Shown: in pieces, positions 40,222-61,845 of the stretch
How positions within the stretch are numbered: position 1 is the first letter of the stretch
How the letters are laid out: every line of letters begins with the position of its first letter
NCBI RefSeq assembly: GCF_002752655.1
Contig: NZ_CP023739.1
Coordinates: 1 to 64,000, forward strand
Direction of reading: 5' to 3'
Length of the DNA: 64,000 bases
DNA from: Methylosinus trichosporium OB3b
GTDB lineage: Bacteria > Pseudomonadota > Alphaproteobacteria > Rhizobiales > Beijerinckiaceae
Position numbers and translations under genes: made by a program
The notes under the pieces: generated by a model
Told to the model about the DNA's origin: nothing
What the model saw: only the letters and a program-made list of their open reading frames with translations
Databases searched by the model: none

Positions 40222-40273
40222 CGCGGGGGCAAGGGGCGCGCATAGCGCGCCTCGACTTGCCCTTGCGGCCGCG
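40222..40273 (-). promoter_or_regulatory. GCAAGGG-type branched inverted repeat (element E)
   Basis: Plus-strand left arm GGGGCAAGGG (to 40235) and right arm CCCTTGCGGC (from 40260) pair over GCAAGGG/CCCTTGC. The inner hairpin is GGCGCGC-ATA-GCGCGCC (40235-40251), touching the left arm. A pyrimidine-rich tract (CTTTCACCTTTTTTCTTC) follows at about 40293-40311. It stands between divergent genes, 105 bases before the minus-strand start at 40117. Confidence 0.7.
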
Positions 40274-40518
40274 CGCCGATGGTGGCAATCGAGCTTTCAC
40301 CTTTTTTCTTCAGATGATTACGTCCTTTCGCGCTCGGCGATTGTTCTCGGCGTAGCGAGCGGACGAGCGGCCGCAGCAGGAGTCGAGGTCGGCGGCGCCG
40401 ATCGACCGAGTTCGAATTTCGATTTTTTGCTTCGAGATCCGCGCCGATTTCGCGGAGCCTCTCGGACGCGCGTCGGAATTCCGGCACGGGCTGGAGCGAC
40501 GCGCGGCGAGGATTTGCA

Positions 40519-41823
40519 ATGGCGATACATTTTCTGAACGTCGGCTCGGTTCGGCGGTCCGAGGGGCGAAGCGTGATTTCGGCGGCGGCGTATTGCTCGC
40601 GATCGAGGCTGAAGGACGCGAAGACACTTCACGAGGTGGACTTTTCCGCCGCGAACGACCTCATTCATTCAGAGATTTTGCTGCCCCACGGCGCAGACGC
40701 TCGGTGGGCGGAACGAGAGATTCTCTGGAACGAGGTCGAAGCGGTCGAGACGCGCAGCAATGCGCAGCTCGCGCTGGAAATCGAGGCGGCGCTGCCCGAA
40801 GCTCTTCCTGCTGGCGACGAGGTGGGCCTCTGCAGGGAATTCGTGACGCCGCTCTTCGTCGAGCGCGGAAGGGTGGTGGACGTCAATCTGCATCGCGCCG
40901 TCGGCGCCGATGGACATCCGCGCGTGTATCTTCATGCGCTGTTGTCGATGAGGGAGATCGGATCGGACGGTTTCGGGAAGAAGCTGGACGATTGGCATGG
41001 GCCGAAGCTCCTCATGCAATGGCGCGAGCGCTGGGCGATGCTCTCGAACAAATATCTTCTCGCCGCGGGCCGGGATCGGTTGATCCGGGCGGGCGCGGAC
41101 GCGGCGCCCGGCCGAGAGCTCGAACCACTTTTCGACGACGCCGAAAGGGAGCGCCAGGCGGAGAACTATGAAATCGCGTGGCGCAATGGCGAGCGCCTGC
41201 TCGGAGAACCCGAGTTGGCGCTGAGGGCGTTGACGCATGCCGGCGCGACATTCACGTACGGCGAAATGATCGCGTTCGTGAGTAAAAATACTGCAGGCAA
41301 AGAGCAATTCGAGACGGCGCGAGCGCGCGTGGAATGTTCGGTCGAGCTGGTCCGGCTCGCCGACGGCGAGAGTTTCAGCACGCGTAGCCTCGCCGCGACA
41401 GTGCAATGCGCATCCGGCGAAAACGGCGCCGTTGCTGCGGCTCCCGGCGGCCTCGACGCGGCGGAAGCGAAGCGGACGCTGGCGGAGGCGATTTCGCAAT
41501 GGGAGCGCGCTGGCCTGCGGCTTCGTGGAGTGGGCTTGACATATGAGACGGCGAAGGCGTTTGAGAAAAAGTCGGGCATCAAGAGCGTCGGGGTCCACGG
41601 GCTTCTCGGGCGGTGGCAGAAGAAGCAGGATCGACTGGCTCCGACGGACGTGCTGGTCGTGAATGACGCCAAAGGCTTGAGCGCGCGGCAGAAGGAATGG
41701 ATGTTGCGGGCGACGCGCGCGGCGCGGTCGAAGCTGGTGTTGGTCGACGGGATCCGACTGGTCGAAATCGACGGCGGCGCGACCGGACTGAGCCCCGAAG
41801 AAATGACGGCCGTGAGCTGTTGA
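40519..41823 (+). CDS. Degenerate MobQ/TraA-type relaxase
   Basis: 434 aa. It opens like Ti-plasmid TraA/MobA-MobL: IHFLNVGSVRRSEGRSVISA, AAAYCSRSRL (catalytic-type Tyr near 25), LIHSEILLPHGADARWAERE and LWNEVEAVETRSNAQLALEI. The metal site looks damaged: where the family has PHAHVMLTMR this protein has VYLHALLSMR (near 145), so the first His of HxH is Tyr. The C-terminal part aligns with the TraA helicase but has no Walker A, and Walker B (VLVIDEA) is replaced by VLVVNDAKG. The frame is intact, so it may have a new role or be slowly decaying. Confidence 0.72.
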   Translation: MAIHFLNVGSVRRSEGRSVISAAAYCSRSRLKDAKTLHEVDFSAANDLIHSEILLPHGADARWAEREILWNEVEAVETRSNAQLALEIEAALPEALPAGDEVGLCREFVTPLFVERGRVVDVNLHRAVGADGHPRVYLHALLSMREIGSDGFGKKLDDWHGPKLLMQWRERWAMLSNKYLLAAGRDRLIRAGADAAPGRELEPLFDDAERERQAENYEIAWRNGERLLGEPELALRALTHAGATFTYGEMIAFVSKNTAGKEQFETARARVECSVELVRLADGESFSTRSLAATVQCASGENGAVAAAPGGLDAAEAKRTLAEAISQWERAGLRLRGVGLTYETAKAFEKKSGIKSVGVHGLLGRWQKKQDRLAPTDVLVVNDAKGLSARQKEWMLRATRAARSKLVLVDGIRLVEIDGGATGLSPEEMTAVSC

Positions 41824-41899
41824 CGGCGAACGAGTTGCACACATCCTTTGAGCAGAGGCCATTGTCGTAGCGATAGTAAGTATTTGGAGAGACGTGCCG

Positions 41900-42154
41900 A
41901 TGAACGCCCGCATTACATTGACGGATATCGATCGCCCGCGCGAACCACTGGAGGTCGAGGTCGTGGAATCGAAGGCGCGCACGATGATCGTGGCGGTTCC
42001 GGGCACGATCATGGAATTCCAGTTGCGGCGGTCGCGTGACGGCGCCGCTTTCGAAGGAGCGATCGGCGGCCGCTATTTCCGCTTCGATCCGAGCGCGCCG
42101 ACGACATGCGTCGGCGCGAAGGGTAAGCCGAAGACGACAAAGGCGGCGGCGTAG
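41900..42154 (+). CDS. Small hypothetical protein
   Basis: 84 aa, beta-rich (NARITLTDIDRPREPLEVEV, MIVAVPGTIMEFQLRR, GGRYFRFDPSAP) with a Lys-rich tail. GGAGAG is 9 bases before ATG 41900. It follows the TraA-like gene by 76 bases on the same strand. Not recognised. Confidence 0.55.
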   Translation: MNARITLTDIDRPREPLEVEVVESKARTMIVAVPGTIMEFQLRRSRDGAAFEGAIGGRYFRFDPSAPTTCVGAKGKPKTTKAAA

Positions 42155-42236
42155 TTTATTGCGCGCGTTCAATGCGCTACGTCGCATTCCGAAGGCGCGC
42201 AGGTTCGATGAAGCGGTCCGAGACAGGAGATTTCCG

Positions 42237-42818
42237 ATGCATATTGAGTTGACGCCCGGCCTGACGAATGTCGTGCGCTTTCCGATCGAGCGGCGGGCGA
42301 AGCCGTCGATGGATGTGGTTCGTGAGATCGCGCCGGATTCGCGAGAAGTCTCATTGGTGATCGAGTCGTTCCGATTCGACGACGACATCGATGGCATTCG
42401 CGATGCGGCCGACCAGGACATGGCGGATTACATTGCGCAGAAGAGGGCTCGCCAGTCGGGCTCGAAGGGATGGGCGGAGCTCGACCGGCTGCTGCAGTCG
42501 CTTGTCGAACGCGCGGTGTCGCTGTGCCGTGAGGCGCATGACGCGTCATTAGCGGCGGTGAAGGCGCAGCGCCTGGTGGTCGAGGCGCAGTCGGAAGGCG
42601 GCTATTGGCTGACGCCACTCAGCGAGCGGGCGTCGGCGCGGACCTTCTACGCCGCGCGATTGCTGGTCGACGCCCATGTGGCGTGTCAGCGCGCGGCGGG
42701 CGCGTCGCGCGCGATCGAGATCGCGAAGCGCGGCGACACATGGACGCCGTTCGACTTGCACACGGAAGCGCTCGCGATGTGCATCGACGAAGTCGCGGCG
42801 AGATCGTCGAATCGTTGA
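42237..42818 (+). CDS. Hypothetical helical protein
   Basis: 193 aa. AGGAGA lies 7 bases before ATG 42237. Helical, with EVSLVIESFRFDDDIDGIRD, GWAELDRLLQSLVERAVSLC and YWLTPLSERASARTFYAARL. No membrane segment or known domain. Third plus-strand gene in a row after the degenerate relaxase, so the three may be co-transcribed. Confidence 0.58.
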   Translation: MHIELTPGLTNVVRFPIERRAKPSMDVVREIAPDSREVSLVIESFRFDDDIDGIRDAADQDMADYIAQKRARQSGSKGWAELDRLLQSLVERAVSLCREAHDASLAAVKAQRLVVEAQSEGGYWLTPLSERASARTFYAARLLVDAHVACQRAAGASRAIEIAKRGDTWTPFDLHTEALAMCIDEVAARSSNR

Positions 42819-42891
42819 AACGCTCACGATCAAGGGCGCACCGAAATAGGGACGAGGGGAGGAGTCGAGAGCCTCCCCTGCGGCCAATCGA

Positions 42892-43169
42892 TCAATAGGG
42901 AATGGCGTCATCCGTGGCGGAAGACGCGCTCCTTTGCCCGCGCCCGATGGAGTCGTTTCGCCCCTCAGCGTCGCGATACTCTCCATCACGATTGTCGGCG
43001 GCCCGCGCGAGGCGCGAGAAATCATTGCAGATGAGATCGACGGTGAAGACACGCTCGCCATCGTCGCGCTCGTAGCTGTTCTGGCGGACGCGGCCGCGCG
43101 CGTGAACGAGATCGCCTTTGCCGATATATTTTTCGATGTACCGCGCCGTGGCGGTCGAGAAAACGACGA
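42892..43169 (-). pseudogene. ssb: ssb, 3' part of a split single-stranded DNA-binding protein gene
   Basis: It reads FSTATARYIEKYIGKGDLVH, ARGRVRQNSYERDDGERVFT, VDLICNDFSRLA and a tail ending DDAIPY, close to the SSB tip DDDIPF that binds partner proteins. The OB-fold start is missing here and lies at 44963-45149. Between the two halves is a 1.8-kb insertion with a 7-bp duplicated target. In the SSB frame a stop occurs just past the junction, so this half cannot be made as one SSB. Confidence 0.78.
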
Positions 43170-43231
43170 AAGTGATCCCCAGCCCCTATACTCGCGAGGT
43201 TTAGGACAACGCACAATGTCGATTGACGATT

Positions 43232-43395
43232 TGCACACGCGATCCCACCGCGCAGAACGTAGAAGATGGCATTCACGATCTCGCGCATCGGCCATTCACG
43301 CCGCCGGCCGTCGAGCCGGGCAGCGGCAGGAATGCCACGATCAACCGCCACTCCACGTCGTTCAAATCCGTCTGGTATCGTTTCGCCACGCGCGT
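43232..43395 (-). pseudogene. IS5-like transposase N-terminal remnant, frameshifted
   Basis: One frame gives AKRYQTDLNDVEWRLIVAFL and the next continues ARLDGRRREWPMREIVNAIF and YVLRGGIA, the familiar N-terminal region of IS5-family transposases. The gene then ends abruptly near the left end of the insertion. A frameshift at about 43310-43325 and the missing C-terminus make it non-functional. Confidence 0.72.
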
Positions 43396-43573
43396 ATGCT
43401 GCGCTCGAGTAGGCGGGGTCCAGATTCTTGTCTCCGAGATGTCCGCAAACTCCCGGAATCATATCGACATCGGCTGTTCTACCACTTTCGAAACGGCCTC
43501 TCAGGCCGTCGTTCGATAGATGGCGGCGGGATCGCTGGGCATAGGTTCGCCGCCCGGGGCGCCGATGTCTCGA

Positions 43574-43987
43574 TCAACGCCCCGTGCTGAAGCTGAAACA
43601 ATATCGGCCGGCCGGATGTTTGCCGCTTCCCACGCCGCCATAGTTGAATCCGCCGCCTTCCGAGGCCGTATCGAAATGCGCGCATAATTCGTACGAGGCA
43701 TCGTCCTTGAGCAGATATTCATAGGGGTGCTGCGCATCGTCGTGCAGTTTGAGCGTCACCCAGTTCTGATCCTGCACCAATTGCTCAAGCGTTTCTGGGA
43801 GTCTATGGGTCTTGCCACGAAAAGCGTTAATGGCGCTGGAAAGGCCCTGTAAATCACGCAGTCTTTTTTCGTCTAGCTTTTTGAAACGTGCAATTTCTGG
43901 AGAATCCATGATCGACAATCCGCCAGTGATCGCCAGAACCACGCAGACCGCGATAAAGCCGGCAAAGAGGGAGGGTCGGGCTTTCAT
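43574..43987 (-). CDS. Membrane-anchored hypothetical protein carried in the ssb insertion
   Basis: 137 aa. One N-terminal membrane segment (LFAGFIAVCVVLAITGGLSI, residues 7-26) then a soluble part: IARFKKLDEKRLRDLQGLSS, LPETLEQLVQDQNWV, YEYLLKDDASYELCAHFDTA. The layout recalls type II pseudopilin-like proteins but without a processing motif. The start overlaps the stop of the next upstream gene by ATGA, so they are coupled and probably act together. Confidence 0.6.
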   Translation of the reverse strand: MKARPSLFAGFIAVCVVLAITGGLSIMDSPEIARFKKLDEKRLRDLQGLSSAINAFRGKTHRLPETLEQLVQDQNWVTLKLHDDAQHPYEYLLKDDASYELCAHFDTASEGGGFNYGGVGSGKHPAGRYCFSFSTGR

Positions 43988-44610
43988 ACGCGCTCTCCCT
44001 GCCGCATCTCGGACAGAAAATAGAAAAAATTGCCGCCAGCGAGAATGGCGACGATCAAAGTCTTGAGCGCGATACGAATGGACATTTCGCCGCCGAGTCC
44101 GCTGTAAATGAGATAGCTCACGTCGCAAATCAGAGTGATGGTCGCAATGAGCAGCGTGAGATAGGTGAGCGCTTTTCGCGTTCGTGAGTCGCGCCGGACA
44201 GGATCGGCGGCGATCGATTTGTTGACGAGGTGGAACGTGTAGAAAAACACGGGGGACACCACGATGAGCGAGGAGATGCTCCAACGCAGACCGTCGGAAA
44301 AAATGAAACTCCGGTCGACCGCAGGATCTGGGAAAAAATGTGTCACATAGTCGAAGCCCACCGACCCTATGTCGTAGACGGTTTTATAAAGCGCAATAAA
44401 CATGACGAGATAAATAAAAACCTCGCGCGCCGAGAGGAATGGCTTGGGTTTTGGCACGGGGGTGACAAAATCTACATCTGCAAAGGCGTTCATGGCTGTG
44501 GCGATGTGCGGTCGTGTCCATCCGGCTGCGCGCAATGTTTGCTCAATCTCGTCGCGTCCGGCCTTCCTGTCCAAGGCGCGACGAACAAATTCCTTCAAAT
44601 CAGCATTCAT
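43984..44610 (-). CDS. Multi-pass membrane protein, DUF5671-like
   Basis: 208 aa. A soluble head (NADLKEFVRRALDRKAGRDE, LRAAGWTRPHIATAMNAF) precedes about four membrane segments (FLSAREVFIYLVMFIALYKT; ISSLIVVSPVFFYTFHLV; LTYLTLLIATITLICDVSYL; IALKTLIVAILAGGNFFYFL). The head plus FIYLVMFIALY is the DUF5671 pattern. ATG 44610 sits after GGGGATGGCAG; a longer frame to 44700 is less likely. Coupled to the next gene by ATGA. Confidence 0.65.
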   Translation of the reverse strand: MNADLKEFVRRALDRKAGRDEIEQTLRAAGWTRPHIATAMNAFADVDFVTPVPKPKPFLSAREVFIYLVMFIALYKTVYDIGSVGFDYVTHFFPDPAVDRSFIFSDGLRWSISSLIVVSPVFFYTFHLVNKSIAADPVRRDSRTRKALTYLTLLIATITLICDVSYLIYSGLGGEMSIRIALKTLIVAILAGGNFFYFLSEMRQGERV

Positions 44611-48888: not shown

Positions 48889-50721
48889 TCAGTCCAATTC
48901 CTCCGCTTGGTGATCCTCTTCGGGATCGGAGTCCTCGTCGGAGGCGCCGATCTCCGGAGCGGGGCCGTCGACATTCCCCTCGTCGTCCTCGGAGCGTTCG
49001 GTCGTCCGGGCGAACTCGCTCGCGATCTCCTCTTCGGAAAGGGCGAAGCGCGCGGCCGGAAGCACGAATGTTGCGCCGGAGACGTGCTCGATGAAGGCGG
49101 CGCGCGTCTCCTTGGCGCGCGGACGGGGCAGCACGGAGTGCGCCGCGGCGGCCTTTTCGAGCGCGGCCTTCGACAGCGACGAGAGAAAATCGTCCGTGGC
49201 CATATTGGGAAGATGCGCGTCCGCGCCGATCGCGTCCCCGACGAGGCGGGCGGCGACGCCGCTCGAATGATAGCCGGGGCGGCAATTGAGAACATGGGCC
49301 AGCATGTCGCGCGCGGCCTTCCGAACGAGGGCAGCGTCCTGGGTGATCCGTCCCTCATTGGCGAGCCGGTGCGCGAGGCCTCGACGCAGGCCCGAGGAGT
49401 AGCCGCTGGCTTTCACATCGACATTGTCGGCGCCGAAGGCGACGACGAGCAGACCGAGAAGCGTGAAGTCGTCGATCTCGTTTTCCGCCAGCGCTTTGGC
49501 CAGGGCGTCGGTGCGGAAATCGCCGATGATCGCGAGACCTTTTTGCGTGATCTCGGGGCGGGTGCGGGTCGGTTCGGAAATCGTCTCGGACTCGCCGGCG
49601 CCCGCCCCAGTCTTTCCCTTCTTTGCGGTCTTCGGATCCGCCTTGGGCACACGAAAGACGATTTCCTTCACCGATCCGTCGCGAGTGTCGACGTAACGGC
49701 CGATCGTGTCGCTCTTTCTCGGCTGCCCCCAATTCCGCTCGGCCTTCGGCGGCAGCTTGCCCTGGCCGTATTCATCAATTTGCAAAATGACCCCATTTTT
49801 CGGCAGATTGGCTTCGATCCATGCGGCCTGCGCGGCGAAGAACGCTTCGACCTGGGTGGTGTAGCGGTTGTCCTGATCGCCCTGCTCGAACAAATCATCC
49901 TCCCACACGATGCCGAAAGCCTGCTCTTCGTCGGGACCGAACTTCGCGATCTTGGCGTAGAGACGCCGCTTGGTGAGCGCGCGAGCGACTTCGTGCCAAA
50001 TGACCGTCTCTTGGCCCTTCTTGGGCTTGTGCTTCTTCCAGACGGACGCCTGCTCGTCGGCGCCAGCGGCGGCGATGGTACGCAGATGACTTTCCTGCGG
50101 CATATCGCCCTTGGCGATCTGGTCGAGCATGTCCGGATGAATATGGGCGAGCAGGCGCAATTTCTTGATCGTCCGCACGGGTAGGGCGAGTGCGCCGCCG
50201 ATCGCCTCTTCCGTCCAGTGATCGGAAATGAGCGCTTCGATCGTGCGCCACTGGTCGACCGGCGCCATCTGCATGCGTACGACGTTCTCGGAGAGCGCGC
50301 GGAGATTGTCGGCGCCGTCGTCGGGGCCGCGGACGAGGACCAGGATTTCGGTGAAGCCAGCGCCGATGGCGGCGCGCACGCGGCCATGACCGGCGACGAT
50401 GACGAGATCGTCGCCGTCGGGACGCACCACGGGCGGCTGCGTAATGCCGGTGGCCTTGATATTGGCGATCATTTGCCGGTCGGCATGTTCGCTGGGAGCG
50501 GTGCGACGGGGATTGTTGGGATTGGGCTTGAGAGAGCGTGGATCGACGTGACGCAATTCCATACGGACGCGGGCGTGCTCCGCCGCCGTGCCGAGATTGT
50601 CGCCGCCGTCCGCCTCGACTTCGGCGACGATTTGGCGATCGGCAGGCTCGCTGGGAGCGACGCGGCCGCGCTTGTTGGAATTGGGCTCTTTAGAGCCAGC
50701 ATCGATGTGAGGCTGTGCCAT
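48889..50721 (-). CDS. ParB/Spo0J-like nuclease-domain protein
   Basis: 610 aa. A ParB N-terminal domain (residues 60-150: DPRSLKPNPNNPRRTAPSEH, VIVAGHGRVRAAIGAGFTEI, LSENVVRMQMAPVDQWRTIE) is followed by a helix-turn-helix region (EEAIGGALALPVRTIKKLRL) and a long C-terminal part ending in a Glu/Asp-rich tail. The first 60 residues repeat part of the ParB box in degenerate form (APSEPADRQ against APSEHADRQ). Plasmid ParB-like proteins of this size are common in leading regions and are not partition proteins proper. Preceded by a GCAAGAG-type repeat element. Confidence 0.82.
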   Translation of the reverse strand: MAQPHIDAGSKEPNSNKRGRVAPSEPADRQIVAEVEADGGDNLGTAAEHARVRMELRHVDPRSLKPNPNNPRRTAPSEHADRQMIANIKATGITQPPVVRPDGDDLVIVAGHGRVRAAIGAGFTEILVLVRGPDDGADNLRALSENVVRMQMAPVDQWRTIEALISDHWTEEAIGGALALPVRTIKKLRLLAHIHPDMLDQIAKGDMPQESHLRTIAAAGADEQASVWKKHKPKKGQETVIWHEVARALTKRRLYAKIAKFGPDEEQAFGIVWEDDLFEQGDQDNRYTTQVEAFFAAQAAWIEANLPKNGVILQIDEYGQGKLPPKAERNWGQPRKSDTIGRYVDTRDGSVKEIVFRVPKADPKTAKKGKTGAGAGESETISEPTRTRPEITQKGLAIIGDFRTDALAKALAENEIDDFTLLGLLVVAFGADNVDVKASGYSSGLRRGLAHRLANEGRITQDAALVRKAARDMLAHVLNCRPGYHSSGVAARLVGDAIGADAHLPNMATDDFLSSLSKAALEKAAAAHSVLPRPRAKETRAAFIEHVSGATFVLPAARFALSEEEIASEFARTTERSEDDEGNVDGPAPEIGASDEDSDPEEDHQAEELD

Positions 50722-50795
50722 GGTGATGATCTCCTGTTCAATTCTGATTGCCGGTCTTCTTTTCGAAAACGAGGATCGAACGCCCCGATCGCGGA

Positions 50796-50851
50796 CGGCG
50801 GGGCAAGAGCGCGGGGCACGCGCGGGAGCAGAGCGACGAACTCTTGCGGCG
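50796..50851 (-). promoter_or_regulatory. GCAAGAG-type branched inverted repeat (element B)
   Basis: GGGGCAAGAG (50800-50809) and CTCTTGCGGC (50841-50850) pair over GCAAGAG/CTCTTGC; the G-to-A change on one arm is matched by C-to-T on the other. An inner hairpin GCGCG-GGGCA-CGCGC lies inside. A pyrimidine-rich tract (CCTTCTCGATTTCCTGTTTC) follows at about 50874. It is 75 bases before the ParB-like start. Confidence 0.7.
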
Positions 50852-51008
50852 ATGGCCGCGCATGGGGCAAATCGCCTTCTCGATTTCCTGTTTCTTATTC
50901 CTGCGCTCGGCGCGAACGGGGATGAGCGAGCGCCAGAAGCGTCGGTAGCGGTGAGTAAGGCGCCGACGCCATCTGCGCTGAACTTCGGGTCCAGCGGGCG
51001 CGAGAAAT

Positions 51009-51404
51009 TCAGCGCAGCCAGACTTGTGATCGGGCGGAGGCGGCTTCAGCTGCGACTCGAAGACCTCCAGCGAGGACGGCGGCGACGGCCCGTTGAAACG
51101 AGACCGTGGGATCGTCGGTCGGGAACGCCGTCATTTCGCGATGGCTGCGTTCGGCCGCCGTCGCGGCGGCTCGCGAAATGGAACTCGCGATGTCTTCGAG
51201 AAATTGATGGAAGTCTTGTTCGGGCATCGTCTCGGCGAAGGTCATAGCGAAGAATTCGACAAAGTGCTTCGCTTGGTCTTCGATTTGGTCGAGATCGAGT
51301 GGTTCGATGTCGAATGTCTCGATCAGGCGCTCCGTTTCGCGCTTCGAAGGCGCCATCGCAATGATGGCATTCGATTCGTCTGGGTGTTTCGAGGAAGTGT
51401 GCAT
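51009..51404 (-). CDS. Hypothetical plasmid protein
   Basis: 131 aa, acidic, helical. KRETERLIETFDIEPLDLDQ, AKHFVEFFAMTFAETMPEQD, ILEDIASS-like FHQFLEDIASSISRAAATA and VSFQRAVAAVLAGGLRVAAE. AAGGAG lies 9 bases before ATG 51404. No family recognised. It is preceded by a perfect member of the GCAAGGG repeat family. Confidence 0.58.
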   Translation of the reverse strand: MHTSSKHPDESNAIIAMAPSKRETERLIETFDIEPLDLDQIEDQAKHFVEFFAMTFAETMPEQDFHQFLEDIASSISRAAATAAERSHREMTAFPTDDPTVSFQRAVAAVLAGGLRVAAEAASARSQVWLR

Positions 51405-51466
51405 GTTCTGTCTCCTTTTCGATTTTGATTTCCTTTCGAAATCGAAAATAGGAGCTTCGCGAGAGG

Positions 51467-51536
51467 GATCGGGACGCAAGGGCGCGCTCGCTCGGGACGA
51501 GCAGGCGCGCATGTCTCGACCCTTGCGTCCCGGATC
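51467..51536 (-). promoter_or_regulatory. GCAAGGG-type branched inverted repeat (element C)
   Basis: The longest outer stem of the family: GGGACGCAAGGG (51471-51482) and CCCTTGCGTCCC (51520-51531), 12 bp perfect, extended by GATC on both sides. Inside, GCGCGC pairs with GCGCGC (51482-51487, 51505-51510) around GCTCG-GGA-CGAGC (51490-51502). It lies 62 bases before the start at 51404 and 47 bases before a plus-strand gene at 51584, so it may serve both directions. Confidence 0.75.
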
Positions 51537-51583
51537 GCTCGTGATAGCTTTCGTTCTTCGGTAAATATTTCGAGGACTTTATT

Positions 51584-53478: not shown

Positions 53479-56400
53479 TCAGGCCGCGGAGCTGGCTTCG
53501 GCGTTTCCGTCGTCATTCGCGGCGAGCGACGCGTCGAGCGCCGCCAGCTCGTCGCGTTTCGCGTCGAGCTCGTCCTCATAGGCGAAAGCTTCATCGAGGC
53601 GCCGGCGATAGGCCGGGAGGCGTTCGGCGGCGTCACTCATGGCGCGCTTCTGCTCGGCCAGATCCACTTCGAAGCGCGAGAGGCAATATTCGAGGCGGGA
53701 GATGACGCCGAGCGGCGTCAGATCGTGCGAATATTCGATATCGAAATGCCGGCCGGCGCGTTGCATCGTCAGCTCGACCTCGGCGAGCTTCTGGCGCTCG
53801 ACGGATTTCGCCGTTACGGACAAATCGAAGCCGCCGATGTTGGCCACGCGCCAGTCGCCGCCCTTGCCTTCGAACTCCCTGGCCCGGATGTTTTTGAGCA
53901 GGGCGGCGCCGGCGTCCTTGCGTTCGACGAATCGCTCGCCGTTCACCTCCATTCGGAAGGCGTCGCCGCGGGTCGGGATTCGCCGGGCGATGTCCTGCTC
54001 GATCTCGCCGATCCGCTTTTCGGCGTGACGGAGCGAGGCCTCGGTCGAGGAGATCGTGCGGCGGACGGCGTATTGATCGTCGAAATGCGCGTCGCGCAGA
54101 CGTTCCAGTCGAGCGATCTCGGCTTCGAGCCCGGCCTTCTGCATGAGCCTCGGGTCGCCCGATGCAATGGCCTTCGCCATGGCGAATTGATTGACCTGCG
54201 ATCCGGCGTCTTCCAGCCGACGGATGCTGCGGTCGCCGGACATGGCCATCTCGATGAACCGAGCTTTCCGCTCCAGCAATTGCCAGCCGGTCGCGTCGAC
54301 GCTGCCCTTGGTGGCGTAGGCGTAGAGCCCGATTTCGTCATTCTCGTTGCCCTGCCGCTCGATACGGCCTTCGCGCTGCTCGATGTGGGAAGGGAGCCAG
54401 GGAACGTCGAGGTGATGGAGGGCGATGAGGCGGCGCTGGGCGTTGACGCCCGTGCCCATCGTGTCGGACGATCCGATCACGATGCGGGTCTTGCCGGCGT
54501 TGATGTCCTGGAACAGGCGCTGCTTGGCGCTCGACTTCTTGTAGTCCTGCATGAAGGCGATCTGCTCGGCGGGAACGCCGAGCGCGACGAGCCGCGACTT
54601 CATCCAGCGATAGGCCGAGAAGCCGCGGGTCGCCTCGACGTTGAGCGTGCCGAGATCGGAGAAGATCATCTGCGCCGCCCCGGGCAGAAGGTAGGGAACG
54701 CCGTCAGCCCGCGTGTAGCGGCGATCGGAGGTCTCGCGCCAGATCGAATAGACATTGTCGATCAGGGAGTTGAGCTTGTTGCCGTCCTCATTTGCGGCGC
54801 CGGGGAGGACGAAGCGCAGATCGATGGCGGCGTGGCGGCCGTCGGTGATGACGGAGAGGAGAATGTCGTCGCCCTTCTCGGGCTTGCCCTTGCGCTGCTC
54901 GATGACGGCGATGCGCTGGGCGAGGATTTTCTGATAAGCCTTGAAGGCGTCAGTCGGCTCGGCCGTGACGATCTGGCGCTTGCCGCCCTTGACGCTCGGC
55001 AGGCGCAGATAATGGCGCAGGTCCGATTTGAGCACGACGTCGGCGACCGAGCGATACATGGCCATGAGATCGGCGACATTGACGAATTCCGAAAAGCGCG
55101 TGACCGGCTTGTAGAGGCCGGACGGCTGAAGCTCCAGCTCGGTTCGCGTCTCGCCGAAGGTCGCCGCCCAGGCGTCAAACTCGTGAATGCCGCGTTCTTC
55201 GAGCGTCTCCGGCTGCATGAATCGCTGGAGGGTGAACATTTCGCCGAGCGTGTTGGTGATCGGCGTGCCGGAGGCGAGGAGCAGAGCCCGGCCGGGGTTC
55301 TTTCCGTCGATGAAGCGGGATTTGACGAAGAGATCCCAGGCGCGCTGCGACCCGTCCGGATCGACGCCCTTCAGGCTCGTCATATTGGTGGCGAAGGAGA
55401 GTTTGCGGAACTCCTGCGCCTCGTCGACGATGAGTTGATCGACGCCCATCTCGCCGATGGTCAGGAGGTCGTCCTTACGGCTCTGCAAGGTCTCGAGCTT
55501 GGCTTCCAGCCCCTCCTTCATGCGCTCGATGCGCTTGCGCGAGATGCGGTCGTCGCCGTCGATCTTCTCGAGCAATTCGGAATAGCTGGCGAGGTGGTTC
55601 TGAATGAGCGCCTGCTCGAAGGCGGCAGGAGCCGGCACGAATTTGAAGGCGCTGTGGGTGATGATGATGCAGTCCCACTGCGCCGTGGCGGCGCGGGCGA
55701 GGAAGCGCTGGCGCTTGTCCTTGGAGAAATTCGTCTCGTCGGCGACCAGAATGCGGGCGTTCGGATAGAGCAGGAGGAATTCGCGGCTCGCCTGCGCCAG
55801 GCAATGACCGGGAACCACCAGCATCGCCTTGGCGACGAGGCCGAGCCGCTTCTGCTCCATGATGGCCGCGGCGATGGTGAAGGTCTTTCCGGCTCCGACC
55901 GAATGGGCGATGTAGGTTTTGCCGGCGCTGACGATGCGCCAGATCGCGCGCTTCTGGTGGTCGTAGAATTTGATGACGCTGCTCGCGCCGGGAAGCTGCA
56001 GATGGCCTCCGTCGAAGTGGCGCGGGACCAGATTGTTGAACTGGTCGTTGTAGATGCGGGTGAGCCGCTCGGCCCGCTCGACATTGGTCCAGACCCAGCG
56101 CTCGAACGCCGTCTTGATCTTGGCGAGCTTCTCCTTGGCCGCTTCGGTCTCGGCGGCGTTCAGCTCGCGCCGTTCTCTGCCGTCCTCCTTCCAGACGTCA
56201 TAGATTTGCGGGATCGACGAATTGAGCGCGTCGGCGAGCAGCAGGCCGGCGTTGCGGCGCGCCGTGCCCCATTCGGAGGTCGCCTCGGCGCGGCCGGAGA
56301 AGGCGGAGAGCTCGACGGTCCAGGAGGCGATCTCGACGGTGTGGCGGATCGAGGCCTTCACGCCGATGACATCGGCGACGAACCCCATGACGACGTCGAT

Positions 56401-58536
56401 CGGGATCCATGGCGCGCCGAGCCGCGCCGAAATATCCGACGGCTTCAGATCCTCGGGCTGGACAGGGCCGAGCGCCTCGACATTGCGCCGATAGCGCGGG
56501 TCGCGTTCGGCCGCGGCGATCGCGGCGGTGAGCTTGGTGCGCACCGAGCCGGACAGATAGGCGTCGGCGGTCTGCCAGCTTTCGAAGCCCTCGATCGTCG
56601 TCTGAGGATCGAGGAAGACGCGGTCGCCCAGCTCGGCGAGCGCTTCGTCGCGCAATCGGCCGAGGAGGTCGGCGATCCGGTCGATGTCGACAAGGCCGAG
56701 CTCGTGCAGGGTTACGGCGAGGGCGTCCGCCGCGCTCTCGATCGTCGGCGTCGCCGGCGGATGCAGCACGCGCTCGGAAAAGATCGGCCCCTTCTTCGCC
56801 ACGCCGGTCTCGACGTCGTAATCTTCGATCGAGGCGACGAGCCAGACGTCGGGGTCGTCGAGGAAGGGCTGGAGATTGGGGCGGCGCTGCGTCTCGCGCG
56901 CCTCGCCGGTCTTCGGATCGGTGGTCTCGCTGATGGTGGTGAGATTGATCGCTCCGAAATTGCGCAGGAAGCTGTTGTAGGCGATGCGCAGGCGCGTCTG
57001 GGCCGGCCCCCAGGGCTCGTTGGCTTCCTGGGCGCGCAGGACCTCGCGGATGGCGTCCCGGATCGGGATGAGGGTGCGAATGATGCGGGCGTGCTTTGCG
57101 GGAATGCCTTCGCCTCCCTTGCCGCCGCGCACCTCGATCTTGCGCGGCGCGCCATCGATAATCTGCATCAGCGCGTCGTCGACGATGACGAAGCTTCCCT
57201 CCTTGATCGTCGCGCCTTCCGCGGCGGTCCCGATGCGAAGGGCAGGGCGGTTCGGCGCGGATGCGGCCGATCGCGCGCTCGGCTGATGGATTCCGCGCGG
57301 CAGACGCGAAACGGCGGCGTCGATTTGCTCGTCGAGCGCGGCGCGATCCTTTCGCAGGCAGGTGTAGGTCGGGCCATAGGCGCTGCTGGTCCGCGCGTGG
57401 AGCCCCATGACCATCTCTGGATGATCGATGAAATACCGATTGATCGAGAGAGCCTCCTCGCCATCCTCGGCGGGGACCGCTTCGGCGAGGCCGTCCCAGA
57501 GCGCGCCGCCGGGCTCCTGGTCAGCGGCGCGCTTCTGCAGGAACAGGATGTCGACGACGACGTCGGTTCCCGCAGTTGCGTTCATGGCTCCCTCGGGAAG
57601 CCGGATCGCGCCGACGAGATCAGCCATGGCGGCGATGTGGGCGCGCGCCTTGTCGTCGACCTTGTCCATGGTCCAGCGGCTGGTGACGAAGGCGGCGAGG
57701 CCGCCCGGCTTCAGGCGCTCGACCGACCGCGCGATGAAATAATCATGCAGCGAAAGGTCGAGGCGCTCTGCCCCGTCGAGACGCGCGCGGCGGTCACTGA
57801 ACGGCGGATTGCCGATGACAAGGTCGAAGCTCTCGGAGAGGCGCGCCTTCGTAAAATCCTCGCGCCGGATCCAGGCGTTCGGAAACAGCTGAGCCGCGAT
57901 GCGCGCGGTGGTGGCGTCCATCTCGACGCCGGTGAGGCTCGATTTGCCGGCGAGCGCTTCCGGCATGAGGGAGAAGAAGAGCCCTGTCCCGCATCCCGGC
58001 TCCAGGATCGAGCCGCCGCAAAAGCCCATGCGCTGGACGGCGCGCCAGATGGCGCGGATGATGAACTCCGGCGTGTAATGGGCATATTGCGTGGCGCGGG
58101 CGAGGCTCGCCAGCTCTTCGCGCGGGACGAGCCGCTCCAGCTCCTCGCCCAAATCCTCCCAGCCTTCAGCGAAGGTCTCGCCGGCGCGGCGGAACATCAT
58201 GTCGGCGAGGTCGCGCGCGCCGAAGCCGACGAAGCGGCTCAGGACGTCCTGCTCCTCCGAAGTCGCATTCCGCTTTTCAGCCTCGATGTCGAGCGCCAGC
58301 CGGATGGCGGCGAGGTTGTCGGCGGCGCGGGCCTTCCAGCCGTGGGCGAGCTGGCGGTCGCCGCGAAGCACGAAGTCCTGCGCGGGAATGGCAGGCGCCT
58401 CCGCGACGGCCGGCGCTTCGTTCTCTACGGGGATATCGGTCGAGGGGCGAAAACTTCCGCCGTCGAGCGTCAATCCCCCGGAGAGGCTGGTGGAATCGAA
58501 CAGAGAAAGCGTCAACTGATTGCTGTCTTTTGCCAT
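53479..58536 (-). CDS. Very large DNA methylase-helicase (N6-adenine methylase plus SF2 helicase)
   Basis: 1685 aa. The methylase part has motif I ILEPGCGTGLFFSLMPEAL (near 179) and the catalytic DLVIGNPPFSDRR (near 245), an adenine-N6 type. A helicase part follows: Walker A HSVGAGKTFTIAAAIM (near 882), DEAQEFRK box (near 1039) and motif VI HIEQREGRIERQGNENDEIG (near 1390). Similar giant proteins occur in the leading regions of conjugative plasmids and in phages, and are thought to protect entering DNA. The opposite strand is open for 1964 codons, but that is a GC effect. No strong promoter element directly before it except a weak hairpin. Confidence 0.9.
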   Translation of the reverse strand: MAKDSNQLTLSLFDSTSLSGGLTLDGGSFRPSTDIPVENEAPAVAEAPAIPAQDFVLRGDRQLAHGWKARAADNLAAIRLALDIEAEKRNATSEEQDVLSRFVGFGARDLADMMFRRAGETFAEGWEDLGEELERLVPREELASLARATQYAHYTPEFIIRAIWRAVQRMGFCGGSILEPGCGTGLFFSLMPEALAGKSSLTGVEMDATTARIAAQLFPNAWIRREDFTKARLSESFDLVIGNPPFSDRRARLDGAERLDLSLHDYFIARSVERLKPGGLAAFVTSRWTMDKVDDKARAHIAAMADLVGAIRLPEGAMNATAGTDVVVDILFLQKRAADQEPGGALWDGLAEAVPAEDGEEALSINRYFIDHPEMVMGLHARTSSAYGPTYTCLRKDRAALDEQIDAAVSRLPRGIHQPSARSAASAPNRPALRIGTAAEGATIKEGSFVIVDDALMQIIDGAPRKIEVRGGKGGEGIPAKHARIIRTLIPIRDAIREVLRAQEANEPWGPAQTRLRIAYNSFLRNFGAINLTTISETTDPKTGEARETQRRPNLQPFLDDPDVWLVASIEDYDVETGVAKKGPIFSERVLHPPATPTIESAADALAVTLHELGLVDIDRIADLLGRLRDEALAELGDRVFLDPQTTIEGFESWQTADAYLSGSVRTKLTAAIAAAERDPRYRRNVEALGPVQPEDLKPSDISARLGAPWIPIDVVMGFVADVIGVKASIRHTVEIASWTVELSAFSGRAEATSEWGTARRNAGLLLADALNSSIPQIYDVWKEDGRERRELNAAETEAAKEKLAKIKTAFERWVWTNVERAERLTRIYNDQFNNLVPRHFDGGHLQLPGASSVIKFYDHQKRAIWRIVSAGKTYIAHSVGAGKTFTIAAAIMEQKRLGLVAKAMLVVPGHCLAQASREFLLLYPNARILVADETNFSKDKRQRFLARAATAQWDCIIITHSAFKFVPAPAAFEQALIQNHLASYSELLEKIDGDDRISRKRIERMKEGLEAKLETLQSRKDDLLTIGEMGVDQLIVDEAQEFRKLSFATNMTSLKGVDPDGSQRAWDLFVKSRFIDGKNPGRALLLASGTPITNTLGEMFTLQRFMQPETLEERGIHEFDAWAATFGETRTELELQPSGLYKPVTRFSEFVNVADLMAMYRSVADVVLKSDLRHYLRLPSVKGGKRQIVTAEPTDAFKAYQKILAQRIAVIEQRKGKPEKGDDILLSVITDGRHAAIDLRFVLPGAANEDGNKLNSLIDNVYSIWRETSDRRYTRADGVPYLLPGAAQMIFSDLGTLNVEATRGFSAYRWMKSRLVALGVPAEQIAFMQDYKKSSAKQRLFQDINAGKTRIVIGSSDTMGTGVNAQRRLIALHHLDVPWLPSHIEQREGRIERQGNENDEIGLYAYATKGSVDATGWQLLERKARFIEMAMSGDRSIRRLEDAGSQVNQFAMAKAIASGDPRLMQKAGLEAEIARLERLRDAHFDDQYAVRRTISSTEASLRHAEKRIGEIEQDIARRIPTRGDAFRMEVNGERFVERKDAGAALLKNIRAREFEGKGGDWRVANIGGFDLSVTAKSVERQKLAEVELTMQRAGRHFDIEYSHDLTPLGVISRLEYCLSRFEVDLAEQKRAMSDAAERLPAYRRRLDEAFAYEDELDAKRDELAALDASLAANDDGNAEASSAA

Positions 58537-58638
58537 GGCGAGAAAACCTTTCGGCGAGCACGAAAAAGCCCGGCGCGCGATGGGCGGCCGGGCGTGGGCA
58601 GAAGGACGAATGTGCGAAGGGGAAGCTTCGGGACGGAC

Positions 58639-58965
58639 TCACCAGGGTCCGAAGGCGGCTTCGATGGCAAAGCGCTCGCGTCGATCGACGAGGTCCAGGG
58701 CGCGGATATGCAGCGCGGAGCCTGCTCGCGCCCGCGCGACGACATGCGCCCAGGCCTCTCTGTCGTCGTGAAATTTCGGCGGACCTTGCTCCGGGTTGTC
58801 GAACTTCTGCAGCTCGATGTGCGGCGCGTCGTCGCGATAATTGCCGCAATCGGATATCACCCAGCCGTCGCGGCGTGCGGCCTCGTGATCGAACGCGTCG
58901 AGACTGAACGCCGCCGCAGTGGCGGCGTCGCGAATTTCGGATCCAGTCGTGCTGAACTGTTGCAT
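58639..58965 (-). CDS. Hypothetical plasmid protein
   Basis: 108 aa. SEIRDAATAAAFSLDAFDHE, DGWVISDCGNYRDDAPHIEL and EAWAHVVARARAGSALHIRA. AGGAG before ATG 58965. It lies between the giant methylase-helicase and a branched repeat, and probably heads the operon containing the giant gene. Not recognised. Confidence 0.6.
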   Translation of the reverse strand: MQQFSTTGSEIRDAATAAAFSLDAFDHEAARRDGWVISDCGNYRDDAPHIELQKFDNPEQGPPKFHDDREAWAHVVARARAGSALHIRALDLVDRRERFAIEAAFGPW

Positions 58966-59017
58966 CGGAGTCTCCTCTCGATCTTCTTCTCGAAGACCCC
59001 GATCCCGAACCGAGGAC

Positions 59018-59109
59018 GAATGGCTGGGGCAAAGGCGGCGCCTCGTGCGCCGGGATCGATCCGGCCCAGCGAAGCGGCCGGAGCGACCCACCCTTTGCGG
59101 CGGCCATTC
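59018..59109 (-). promoter_or_regulatory. GCAAAGG-type branched inverted repeat (element D)
   Basis: The outer arms GAATGGC..GGGGCAAAGG (59018-59035) and CCTTTGCGGC..GCCATTC (59092-59109) pair over GCAAAGG/CCTTTGC and GAATGGC/GCCATTC; the A in the first is matched by T in the second, unlike elements A, C and E. Inside, CCGGCC and GGCCGG pair (59061-59066, 59076-59081). A long pyrimidine tract (CCTTCCTTTTCTCGTTCCTC and on) follows from 59122. It is 52 bases before the start at 58965. Confidence 0.75.
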
Positions 59110-59184
59110 GTTCGCGGTAACGCCTTCCTTTTCTCGTTCCTCTTTTTCTATTTCCTTCTTTTCGGACCTACGAATTGCGCGGCG

Positions 59185-59619
59185 TCACGAATGGGGCCGA
59201 ACGAGTCGCGCCGCCGGCGTCTTGTCACGCGCAATACGTTCCGAGAGCCAGCGCCGACAATCGATCCTGTCGACGACGCGCTGCGCGCCGAGATCGAGCA
59301 GACAGGCTGCGCCACCGAATGCGTCGAACGAGGGGAACGCGCAGCCCTGACTCCATTGGAAGCCCCATAAGCCCGTCAGTCCGAACGTCCTCGCACAGCG
59401 CTGAACGAACGCGATCACTTGCTCGGGATCGCCATCTTCGCCGGAGACGATACGAAGACTTCCTCGATCGAGGTCGCAGGCCTTCACGGTGAAGCAGATG
59501 CGCTCATATCTGGCGTCGAGCTCCTCGGCATATCGCTCATAGAGAGTGAGAGCCGATGGCAGAAACTCGGCGCGACCGAGTGGAAGAACGCAGGAAAAAT
59601 GCGTGTAGGAGCGGGACAT
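59185..59619 (-). CDS. Hypothetical plasmid protein
   Basis: 144 aa. SRSYTHFSCVLPLGRAEFLP, LYERYAEELDARYERICFTV, GEDGDPEQVIAFVQRCARTF and GLTGLWGFQWSQGCAFPSFD with an Asp/Glu-rich middle. AGGAGA 7 bases before ATG 59619. Not recognised. Next to the second PP-loop gene on the same strand, so probably in its operon. Confidence 0.6.
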   Translation of the reverse strand: MSRSYTHFSCVLPLGRAEFLPSALTLYERYAEELDARYERICFTVKACDLDRGSLRIVSGEDGDPEQVIAFVQRCARTFGLTGLWGFQWSQGCAFPSFDAFGGAACLLDLGAQRVVDRIDCRRWLSERIARDKTPAARLVRPHS

Positions 59620-59683
59620 GGCGATGTCTCCTCTGGGAGGCGAGAAACGGATTGTGAAAAAGGGAAGCCGAGAACTGCGGGTG

Positions 59684-60745
59684 TCAGCCGGGACCGGCGG
59701 CGTCGCCGAAGGCGCCGGCGGGCAGACGCCAGGATTCGGTGGATGTGCGTATCGGTGGCGACCAATGCTCGGACATGGCGAGCTGGACCAGGTCTGACCG
59801 AGCGAGCGCGGCCGGATAGGGTCTGCCGCGATCGGCGACGGCATGGATCGAAGCGTCGCGTTTGACGGTGCAGCCGAAGCGGCGTTCGTATTCGGCAATC
59901 GTCTCGAAGCGTTCCGGCGCCATCCATCTGATCGTCGCCAACTGATCGGGCGACGCGAAGATGCAGTGCATGCAGGAGACGCGGCCGAAGCCGAGCTGAT
60001 AGGCGACGTGCGGAATAACGCCGTGATGCCGGAGCAGATCCCAGACTTGTCGTTCCTCCAAGCCGTGGATCGGACGCCAATGGTCGACATGGCGACGCCG
60101 GCGCGGACCGCCGCGTGTGTCGGTGCGATGCGCCTCGAACGTCAGATAGAGAGCCCTCGCTGGGCTCTCCTCGGCGCGTTCGCCGGTGACGACGAGCGTG
60201 CGCTTGCCGAGGAAGCGCGGCGAATTGCAGATCATGCTTCGCATCACGTCGATTTTCGCGACGGGGCTACACCAACGAAGCCGCAAATCTCCCGTCACCT
60301 GCGGAAACCGCAGACGCGTGCCGGGAACGCCGTGACCGCCGACCGTCGTGACGCCTCCTTCCGGCGTCTCGAACATCACCGACGCGGTGGGCTCGCTATC
60401 ACGCAACATCTCACGGCGCAGTCCGCCGTCGCGCCATGAGAAGTAGAGCGGAACGCCGAAGGACTCGGCGAGCGCTCGGCAATAGCCTGCCGTGATCGGC
60501 CAATCGAACGTGGGCGGCCCGCGACCGTCGACGTCGTGATGATGCAGCTCGATCCGAGTGGGATCGACGCCTTCATCGATGAGATGAAGGAGTGTTCCAA
60601 CTGAATCTTTGCCTCCAGATGAGGCAATCAATATGTAGTCGTAGCTCCTGAGATCAGGAGCGATGGAGGATTCGGGGCGAGAGCGAGCGTGCAGATTCTC
60701 GTCGCCTGCGAGGTTCGTCGATATGGCGCGTGTCATGGCGATCAC
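59684..60745 (-). CDS. PP-loop ATPase, phosphoadenosine phosphosulfate reductase family (DndC-like), second copy
   Basis: 353 aa. The PP-loop YILIASSGGKDSVGTLLHLI near residue 40 has the full SGGKDS. Further features: LHHHDVDGRGPPTFDWPITA, LRLRWCSPVAKIDVMRSMIC, VTGERAEESPARA and the Cys pair FGRVSCMHCIFASPDQLATI. It differs from the copy at 52538-53422 and is closer to the DndC-like plasmid type. The start is GTG 60745 overlapping the ArdC-like stop (GTGA), or ATG 60736. The DNA target or substrate is unknown; no other dnd genes are present. Confidence 0.8.
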   Translation of the reverse strand: MIAMTRAISTNLAGDENLHARSRPESSIAPDLRSYDYILIASSGGKDSVGTLLHLIDEGVDPTRIELHHHDVDGRGPPTFDWPITAGYCRALAESFGVPLYFSWRDGGLRREMLRDSEPTASVMFETPEGGVTTVGGHGVPGTRLRFPQVTGDLRLRWCSPVAKIDVMRSMICNSPRFLGKRTLVVTGERAEESPARALYLTFEAHRTDTRGGPRRRRHVDHWRPIHGLEERQVWDLLRHHGVIPHVAYQLGFGRVSCMHCIFASPDQLATIRWMAPERFETIAEYERRFGCTVKRDASIHAVADRGRPYPAALARSDLVQLAMSEHWSPPIRTSTESWRLPAGAFGDAAGPG

Positions 60746-61719
60746 GCGGCCTCGACGAGGGGCGCGTCGCTATCGGCAGCGTCCTGTTCATCCGAGTCGC
60801 TGTGGCTTTCAGCGAAGTCTGGATGAAAGGCGAGGCAGAAATCCGCTGCCTTCTGCGCGGCGGCGGCTGCGCGAAAGATTTCGCGCTTGTCGCTCTTGAG
60901 GCGCTCTAGCCAAAATGCTACATAACTCGCGTGGTTCTCGATTTCAGTCGGCAGACCGAGTTCTGTGTTGACGAAACAACTTGCTAAATCGGCCACTAAC
61001 TCTTCGAACGCGTATTTCGCGGAGCCGAATACTCCCGTCAGATCGCGGTTCAGACGGCTCGGCGCCGCTGTCCAGTGGCAAAGTTCATGAATCTCGACCG
61101 AGGCGAGCGCTTCAGGCGAACGGAACGCGTTTTTCGGCGGCAAATGAATGCTATCGGTAGACGGGCGGTAGAAGGCCTGATCCCCGCCAATATGGACAAT
61201 GGCGCGGCTGTTCCGCATGATGATGTCCGGCGCGTCGAATCGACGCCATGGCGCCTCTTCGATCGTGGGCGGCGTAAACGCCGGAATACCGTCTATCTGC
61301 GAGCCGTTGAAAACAGTGAAAGAGCGAAGCAGCGGGATGTTGCGCGTGTGCTCTTCTCCATCCGAAGGCGCGTCGCGATCTTCGACCTGAAGCTGCTTGT
61401 AGAAGTATATTGTGGTTCCCTTCTCGCCGGCGCGCACCTGCCAGCCCCTGTCCTTCGCCTGCTTGTAGCTGCAAAAGCGAGGATCGCCATTCGCGAAGGA
61501 GAATTGCGACATGCCGAGCAAGAGGACGTTGATCCCGTGATACCGGCGTCCGGTCGTTGCGTTGATCGGCGAGAGCGGCCCGGCGGCCGTGTCGGGGTTC
61601 CAGGGTCTGCGCCAGGGGGCGACGCCCTGTTCAAGCGCAGCGACGATGCGATCGGTCACGTCTCGGTAGTGATCGCGACGCGCGGGCGCGCGTCCATTGC
61701 TCTTCAATTTGCCGTTCAT
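60742..61719 (-). CDS. ArdC-like antirestriction protein (ssDNA-binding domain plus zinc protease-like domain)
   Basis: 325 aa. The N-terminal DUF1738-type part (DHYRDVTDRIVAALEQGVAP, WRRPWNPDTAAGPLSPINAT, YHGINVLLLGMSQF) is followed by KQAKDRGWQVRAGEKGTTIY and the metallopeptidase-like site SVEIHELCHWTAAPSRLNRD (HEXXH-type near 215) with further acidic residues in FEELVADLASCF. ArdC proteins protect incoming single-stranded plasmid DNA from host restriction. It is the first gene after element A and is coupled to the second PP-loop gene. Confidence 0.87.
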   Translation of the reverse strand: MNGKLKSNGRAPARRDHYRDVTDRIVAALEQGVAPWRRPWNPDTAAGPLSPINATTGRRYHGINVLLLGMSQFSFANGDPRFCSYKQAKDRGWQVRAGEKGTTIYFYKQLQVEDRDAPSDGEEHTRNIPLLRSFTVFNGSQIDGIPAFTPPTIEEAPWRRFDAPDIIMRNSRAIVHIGGDQAFYRPSTDSIHLPPKNAFRSPEALASVEIHELCHWTAAPSRLNRDLTGVFGSAKYAFEELVADLASCFVNTELGLPTEIENHASYVAFWLERLKSDKREIFRAAAAAQKAADFCLAFHPDFAESHSDSDEQDAADSDAPLVEAA

Positions 61720-61773
61720 GGGATTCGTCTCCGTTTCAGGTCTCGGAACGAAATCCCACGCCCCGCATCACGG

Positions 61774-61845
61774 CCGCCGGGGCAAGGGCGGGCTCGCCGC
61801 TCGCGGCGAGACCGGGCGCGCGCGCCTTTACCCTTGCGGCGGCGA
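61774..61845 (-). promoter_or_regulatory. GCAAGGG-type branched inverted repeat (element A)
   Basis: The outer arms CCGCC-GGG-GCAAGGG (61774-61788) and CCCTTGC-GGCGG (61831-61842) pair with a 3-base bulge. Inside are CTCGCCGC-TC-GCGGCGAG (61793-61810) and the palindrome GGCGCGCGCGCC (61815-61826). A pyrimidine-rich stretch (CTTTCCGCTGTTCATTCTCT) follows at about 61866. It is 54 bases before the ArdC-like start and stands in the divergent spacer to the MucR-like gene. Confidence 0.75.

Follow-up and report, generated by a model that had tools for sequence, protein, structure and literature searches.

Covarying branched inverted repeats before genes of plasmid pOB3b_02 of Methylosinus trichosporium OB3b and of related plasmids: candidate single-strand promoters in Alphaproteobacteria

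The DNA studied here is the first 64,000 nucleotides of contig NZ_CP023739.1 of Methylosinus trichosporium OB3b (assembly GCF_002752655.1), and this whole stretch is called the window below. Its part from 40000 to 64000 is identical to plasmid pOB3b_02 of the same strain (NZ_CP119871.1, 209103 bp), a repABC plasmid with Dot/Icm-like transfer genes, a MobF relaxase and a MobA/MobL gene; at 40-64 kb a window position equals the NZ_CP119871.1 position minus 92293. In this part minus-strand genes, among them ParB-like, N-6 methylase/helicase, PAPS-reductase-like and ArdC-like ones, surround five branched inverted repeats, the elements A to E, and past the window end the same block continues with a DUF3991/toprim gene, another ParB-like gene and a DUF932 gene. 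The elements are listed below with the spans of their covariance-model matches and with the left arm of the inner stem, which in each case has its exact complement on the other side; the strand is that of the gene direction.

40208..40287, minus strand (predicted folding strand plus): element A, 90 nt before the start of the hypothetical coding sequence (CDS) 39743-40117; inner stem 40229-40266, GCAAGGG
50781..50869, minus strand (predicted folding strand plus): element B, 59 nt before the ParB-like gene; inner stem 50803-50847, GCAAGAG
51455..51546, minus strand (predicted folding strand plus): element C, the weakest model match, 50 nt before the hypothetical CDS 51009-51404; inner stem 51476-51526, GCAAGGG
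59008..59119, minus strand (predicted folding strand plus): element D, 42 nt before the small hypothetical CDS 58639-58965, after which comes the methylase/helicase gene; inner stem 59029-59098, GCAAAGG
61761..61859, minus strand (predicted folding strand plus): element E, 41 nt before the ArdC-like gene; inner stem 61782-61837, GCAAGGG

An earlier note, made from the sequence alone, had described five inverted repeats with paired stem changes in B and D, and all five were found where it had placed them. In fact the window holds five GCAARRG inverted repeats where 200 dinucleotide shuffles give a mean of 0.065 and a maximum of 1; the elements are real and far above chance. The flanks GGGGCAA (left) and TTGCGGC (right), which the note had seen in four of the five, are present in A, B, D and E, while C lacks them and has its stem extended as GGGAC/GTCCC instead; its model match, with an E-value of 0.022, is the weakest of the window copies. 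The positions were right for all five, and the ends were too short, since the outer stem resumes past a small mismatch and the model matches span 80-112 nt. The polypyrimidine tract on the right side of the plus strand stands out clearly in D and E and moderately in A and B, and is weak in C; read on the minus strand, the flanking 50 nt have a purine fraction of 0.86 in D, 0.74 in E, 0.68 in A, 0.66 in B and 0.54 in C. An annotated minus-strand CDS lies behind each of the five, in agreement with the note. A pattern scan of the remainder of pOB3b_02 found no further GCAARRG inverted repeat; a sixth copy at 163832-163920 of the plasmid (contig 71539-71627), outside the window and before the DUF3991/toprim gene, escapes the exact pattern with its stem and is picked up only by the covariance model. 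By eye, an extra small hairpin near the ribosome site seems to be present in the leaders 50722-50802, 51405-51475, 58966-59028 and 61720-61781, for example TCTTC...GAAGA before element D.

Read in the gene direction, the elements are ordered as a purine-rich tract, an outer stem, a C-rich mismatch, an inner stem, the inner hairpins, the mirror image of these and a leader. The outer stem, in which a few positions mismatch, is at most some 20 positions long, and the small C-rich mismatch separates from it the inner stem of 7-8 bp, which is GCAAGGG/CCCTTGC and, in many Rhizobiales, TCAAGGG/CCCTTGA; the hairpins inside the inner stem vary in size, so that the whole is an imperfect, branched hairpin. 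The first covariance model, R1, was built from 17 elements, with the window copies B and E in training and A, C and D outside it. An enlarged alignment of 44 matches (41 distinct rows), fitted to the covariance model, has a nearly invariant CAA/TTG core, standard pairs in 83.8% of the pair cells and compensatory changes on both sides in 24 of the 34 modelled pairs, and its covariation score is 0.287, against 0.091 for shuffles, none of 500 reaching it, and no more than 0.072 when slid. Moreover, a MAFFT alignment of the 17, which is independent of the model, gives double changes in 15 of 34 pairs and a score of 0.173 vs 0.088. The covarying family that the earlier note had proposed is supported by both alignments. 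A scan of the whole window against Rfam 15 at E-values up to 0.5 gave no structured RNA family for the elements, its two weak hits, at 20.7 and 37.6 kb, being unrelated and below their gathering scores.

As the earlier note had expected of related plasmids, searches with the covariance model turn up copies before leading-region genes in several alphaproteobacterial families. A search of genome contigs with the ParB-like protein gave 26 loci, all 26 with at least one element: 20 have it by the model on the gene strand, and six (L025, L026, L028, L029, L031 and L032) by the palindromic pattern alone, from which the strand cannot be read. The element lies at most 200 nt upstream of the ParB-like gene in 15 of these loci and elsewhere in the locus in the other 11, among which all six pattern-only loci fall. 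By BLAST against PLSDB, one Rhizobiales element (E-value up to 1) matches 520 records, 382 of them with at least 80% of the query, and another (E-value up to 0.01) matches 481, of which 356 have at least 80%; an Acetobacteraceae element (E-value up to 1) matches 40 records, 19 of them Roseomonas, at up to seven places per record, and the weaker matches in this last list may be chance. Covariance model R2, run on seven whole plasmids at E-values up to 0.05, finds 27 copies, on a single strand per plasmid: six in pOB3b_02, seven each in pMSC49b and a Roseomonas gilardii plasmid, two each in Ancylobacter pD, pShin-12 and pAt12D1, and one in pTiS4. Some of these copies had trained R2, and each match on the opposite strand is one of these places in reverse reading, with a lower score. 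Class-wide genome searches say little on the frequency of the elements: R1 matches 3 of 385 genomes, with only 11 first-look candidates scored per genome, and the exact pattern occurs in 5 of 385, two of them judged true (OB3b itself and G326) and three judged chance because the arms do not pair.

The place of the elements relative to genes is regular. Among 50 copies, which were not de-duplicated, an open reading frame (ORF) start with a ribosome-site-like motif lies within 160 nt on the sense side in 47 and on the other side in 11; the leader from element to start codon measures 21-94 nt in 47 of the 50. The 50 nt upstream are at least 70% purines in 38 of the 50 copies, vs 0.9% of random 50-mers from the same sequences. 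In plasmids of the pTi type the elements precede DUF3991 and DUF1419 genes; in Roseomonas and Methylosinus they precede several genes including ArdC-like ones, and in Methylosinus ParB-like ones too. The genes of the window that matter here are as follows.

6034..9204, minus strand: MobF (TrwC-type) relaxase gene (Pfam TrwC, E-value 1.1e-40), with the elements on its 5' side and on the same strand
40519..41823, plus strand: MobA/MobL family gene adjoining element A, by annotation and tblastn relatives; a possible candidate for a second mobilisation gene
48889..50721, minus strand: gene of a protein with a ParB N-terminal domain, behind element B (Pfam ParB_N, E-value 7.6e-11; annotation)
53479..58536, minus strand: N-6 methylase/DEAD-box helicase gene, the second gene behind element D (Pfam; annotation)
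60742..61719, minus strand: ArdC-like gene behind element E (Pfam ArdcN, E-value 1e-37; MPTase-PolyVal, a zincin-like metallopeptidase, E-value 1.9e-44)

Several side observations belong to this setting. A second origin of transfer (oriT) could lie in the gap 40288-40519, which separates element A from the MobA/MobL gene, and no RSF1010-like nic motif was found there. Between mobF and the elements, window 11.6-25 kb holds defence-type cargo, namely an RtcB-like ligase with release factor PrfH, and also an ABC-three-component system with a restriction endonuclease. The offset between the window and NZ_CP119871.1 is 92291 for the genes at 6-31 kb and 92293 at 40-64 kb; this means a difference of two bases between the assemblies, at some point in window 31-40 kb. 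Among the loci L046, L048, L050, L083 and L047, those of pTi-type plasmids have in common the gene order DUF3991/toprim, DUF1419, DUF3085, N6 methylase/helicase, ParB-like and ArdC-like, with gaps and variants, located between ImuABC or trb genes and oriT, ImuABC being upstream in some; in the Roseomonas variant ArdC comes first. The ParB and ArdC genes of the pTi type have other large structured upstream regions (L083:18711-19077, L050:9976-10302, L050:15505-16013), which gave no match to the covariance model; the one before ParB in L083 also sits behind a purine tract.

For the side of oriT and the strand that enters the recipient, the pTi-type plasmids are the most informative. Their conserved oriT core has traC (minus) on one side and traA (plus) on the other; in the reading direction of the minus strand it carries a nic-like motif, which we take to be the nic motif of the pTi/RSF1010 type. 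This orientation and the typical place of the relaxase in the lagging region, as stated by Samuel et al. (PMC11541004), both make the traCDG side the expected leading side and the minus strand the one that should enter. Among the matches listed for both the oriT (the best 60 of 515 and 60 of 496 records) and the element (the best 30 of 520, 60 of 481 and 60 of 453), all 24 pTi-type records have the element on the predicted strand and side, at 13-48 kb from oriT with a median of 22 kb, many of these plasmids being related to each other. The 25th record, pTiS4, has the element on the wrong side of the first of two oriT-like sites and on the right side of the second, 33 kb away; the two sites of pTiS4 (NC_011982.1), at about 36 kb and 86.9 kb, are of the same type, each beside traC/traD genes. 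In the three MOBF plasmids the elements are found, three times out of three, 5' of mobF and on the same strand as it, and in F the leading genes sit likewise relative to the start of the transfer genes, which is the same architecture. By analogy with this mobF arrangement, we infer that the elements of pOB3b_02 lie in the leading region.

The two strands of the elements are predicted to fold unequally. With DNA energies and dinucleotide shuffles, and for 23 elements (77 de-duplicated at 85%, leaving 34, minus 11 dispersed-repeat types), z is more negative on the entering strand in all 23, with a mean of -3.9 vs -2.5, and the entering-strand energy excess over the shuffles amounts to 3.2 kcal/mol and is above zero in 21 of 23 (p 1e-5). 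This test replaced a plain comparison of two-strand energies (entering strand better in 22 of 23), which is partly a composition effect, as shuffles likewise favour the entering strand. As for wobble pairs, the coding strand has 8 G.T where shuffled columns expect 25.5, and 30 A.C, that is G.T on the entering strand, where they expect 39.7, so that coding-strand G.T is depleted more than A.C (p 0.03); a terminal U.G column, with no Watson-Crick pair in any sequence, was left out of these counts, and with it they become 21 vs 30. A first wobble count of 28 vs 9 (p 0.0026) was set aside since it ignores column composition, and the corrected p is 0.02-0.03. If the elements acted in mRNA, coding-strand G.U should be tolerated, and the depletion of G.T runs opposite. 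In the window, the plus strands of A, C and D reach z of -5.4 to -5.9 against 200 shuffles and that of E -2.9. The Frpo repeats of F as positive control fold 2.0 and 1.8 kcal/mol better on the entering strand, a weak comparison of two related copies (2 of 2) that was not shuffle-corrected. As far as predicted folds can tell, the strand comparison favours an element of single-stranded DNA over an mRNA leader.

Taken together, the family, its covariation, the place before genes, the strand, the side of oriT in the pTi type and the folding preference of the entering strand are computed results, and we consider that they are best explained, with moderate confidence, if the elements are single-strand promoters on the transferred strand that work like Frpo of F; the family would then probably be a switch for early gene expression. 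The mechanism might run as follows. While the transferred strand is single in the recipient, each element would fold into an imperfect hairpin, where RNA polymerase would meet a site resembling double-stranded DNA, with a -35-like TTG[A/C] motif, which indeed lies within the inner stem. Transcription would proceed from the hairpin into the next gene, copying the entering strand, and ArdC-like, methylase, ParB-like and primase-like genes could be expressed before the second strand is made; second-strand synthesis would then remove the hairpin and end the expression. Polymerase binding, the transcript start, the timing and the shut-off are steps that we infer. The earlier note had proposed these single-strand promoters by equating the elements with Frpo. 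Part of this is supported, namely a covarying family before genes of anti-restriction and establishment type, the entering-strand template orientation being kept and entering-strand folding being favoured; the equation with Frpo itself is unsupported in the form stated, because the -10 box is missing and the model has no match in the F leading region.

A number of observations weigh against such promoters and deserve to be considered together. None of the 37 copies used in this test, out of 40, has on either arm a sigma70 -10 hexamer that matches in at least 4 of 6 positions at a distance of 16-18 nt from the TTG, and R2 gave no match on 20 kb of the F leading region at E-values up to 10. A sigma54-like spacing was considered by eye and dropped. 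The oriT of pOB3b_02 is not located, no RSF1010-like nic motif being found near mobF or before the MobA/MobL gene. The strand preference within the window is clear for A, C and D, hardly present in E and slightly reversed in B (z -1.62 vs -1.74), where the plus strand folds not clearly better than shuffles (z -1.6, 10 of 200 as good). Furthermore, the copies share ancestry, and the p values are therefore optimistic. In RNA sequencing of a transfer-de-repressed mutant of pLPU83a, as PMC13055273 reports, the only induced gene listed apart from the transfer genes and two genes adjoining them is a leading-region gene of DUF3991 type; its induction may come from an ordinary promoter or from transcription of transferred strands. 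The last such point, dispersed relatives in another genus, is best discussed along with the rival explanations.

In that genus (g336, from the same order), seven of the eight listed genomes have sequences related to the inner structure scattered over both strands, with 13 copies in one, as expected of a mobile palindromic repeat of the REP (repetitive extragenic palindromic) type that has no function for neighbouring genes, and in 14 of 25 dispersed rows an ORF also starts at most 160 nt away, by a loose test. Two chance hits and three plasmid types were excluded from these 25 rows; one place is counted twice among them, and one row comes from another genus. The dispersed repeat itself (loci L052-L081, on large contigs) is a relative of the inner hairpin, TCAAGGGTGAAGG...CCCTTGA, and it lacks the purine tract, which occurs in 0 of the 25 rows vs 38 of the 50 copies. 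In OB3b, moreover, pattern and model matches are confined to one plasmid block and one strand, and no REP-type scatter over the genome was seen, R1 having scored only 11 candidates there; a REP-like origin is highly improbable and the least probable of the readings. Structured RNA leaders, acting as attenuators or translation regulators in mRNAs made from ordinary upstream promoters, would suit the short distance of 21-94 nt to the start codon and the further hairpin seen by eye in between, yet G.U pairs of the coding strand are depleted, not tolerated, this strand folds less well than the entering one and Rfam offers no family at E-values up to 0.5. An ordinary promoter scoring at least 9 of 12, upstream or downstream, occurs in 0 of 32 copies; this says little, since shuffles reach that score in only 3.8% (upstream) and 2.5% (downstream), so its upstream part is a weak point against leaders, which we regard as very improbable.

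The earlier note had also left room for operators as well as attenuators, and both are less likely than single-strand promoters. A plasmid regulator of the block that binds double-stranded operators, or cruciforms, would account for a conserved core sequence repeated before several genes of one plasmid; a double-stranded site needs neither paired changes in a long outer stem and in inner hairpins nor a strand difference, and this reading is improbable. The rival that keeps some weight, although we hold it unlikely, is that of single-strand initiation (ssi) sites, that is, entering-strand hairpins where primase or a primosome starts the second strand. It shares the entering-strand folding preference and the leading-side location, it has a pyrimidine tract flanking on the entering strand and a DUF3991/toprim gene, primase-like by name, in the same block, and a dual role in transcription and as primer RNA is claimed for Frpo by the title of the Frpo paper. 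Nothing need tie such sites to the starts of genes, yet 47 of the 50 copies are placed immediately before one, and up to seven copies per plasmid stand before different genes. They might sit between genes because there is room, and priming may also be combined with a promoter function.

Concerning single-strand promoters again, a more specific and more tentative proposal is that Alphaproteobacteria possess their own class of them, unrelated to Frpo and without a -10 box, which would read several establishment genes one by one off the entering strand, perhaps with a plasmid factor such as the DUF3991/toprim protein, and which may also prime the second strand. In the open literature, apart from subscription journals, preprints and supplements, no title on single-strand promoters of Alphaproteobacteria was among the matches listed, and the experimentally studied ones cited there are those of F and ColIb-P9. 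If the promoter reading is true, a family defined by structure on several hundred plasmids of Agrobacterium, Rhizobium, Sinorhizobium, Bradyrhizobium, Roseomonas and methanotrophs would suggest that the incoming strand is generally used for early expression, and the elements could serve as a marker for anti-defence genes in Alphaproteobacteria. One would then have to ask how polymerase reads a hairpin that has no -10 box.

Among known systems, single-strand initiation sites and sso (single-strand) origins are hairpins that act on single-stranded plasmid DNA and are not known to be defined by a position before genes; they are likened to the elements by description. Samuel et al. (2024), in the part of PMC11541004 used here, had the same idea for the same kinds of genes, their Frpo-like candidates coming from BLAST to five known sequences and a -35/-10 consensus, so that the search rests on similarity to known Frpo/ssi and on these boxes; the words "Alphaproteobacteria" and "Agrobacterium" are absent from its main text. 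Frpo of F is, according to passages of PMC9849209, a stem-loop with -10 and -35 boxes, and the early expression is lost when Frpo1 or Frpo2 is deleted. Unlike Frpo, the family has no canonical -10 box (0 of 37) and no model match in F; each small gene or operon has its own copy, as many as seven being present, and the copies show a branched top and the conserved CAA/TTG core. The elements have the position and the predicted fold expected of Frpo, without its boxes or detectable homology; they probably work like it and are at most candidate members of the Frpo family. With the Frpo/ssi sequences of F (Frpo1, Frpo2) and ColIb-P9 they share a transferred-strand hairpin, here a predicted one, a place in the leading region before establishment genes templated by that strand, and more than one copy per plasmid, and the F leading region holds several of the same gene kinds, namely ParB-like, methylase, antirestriction, DUF932 and SSB.

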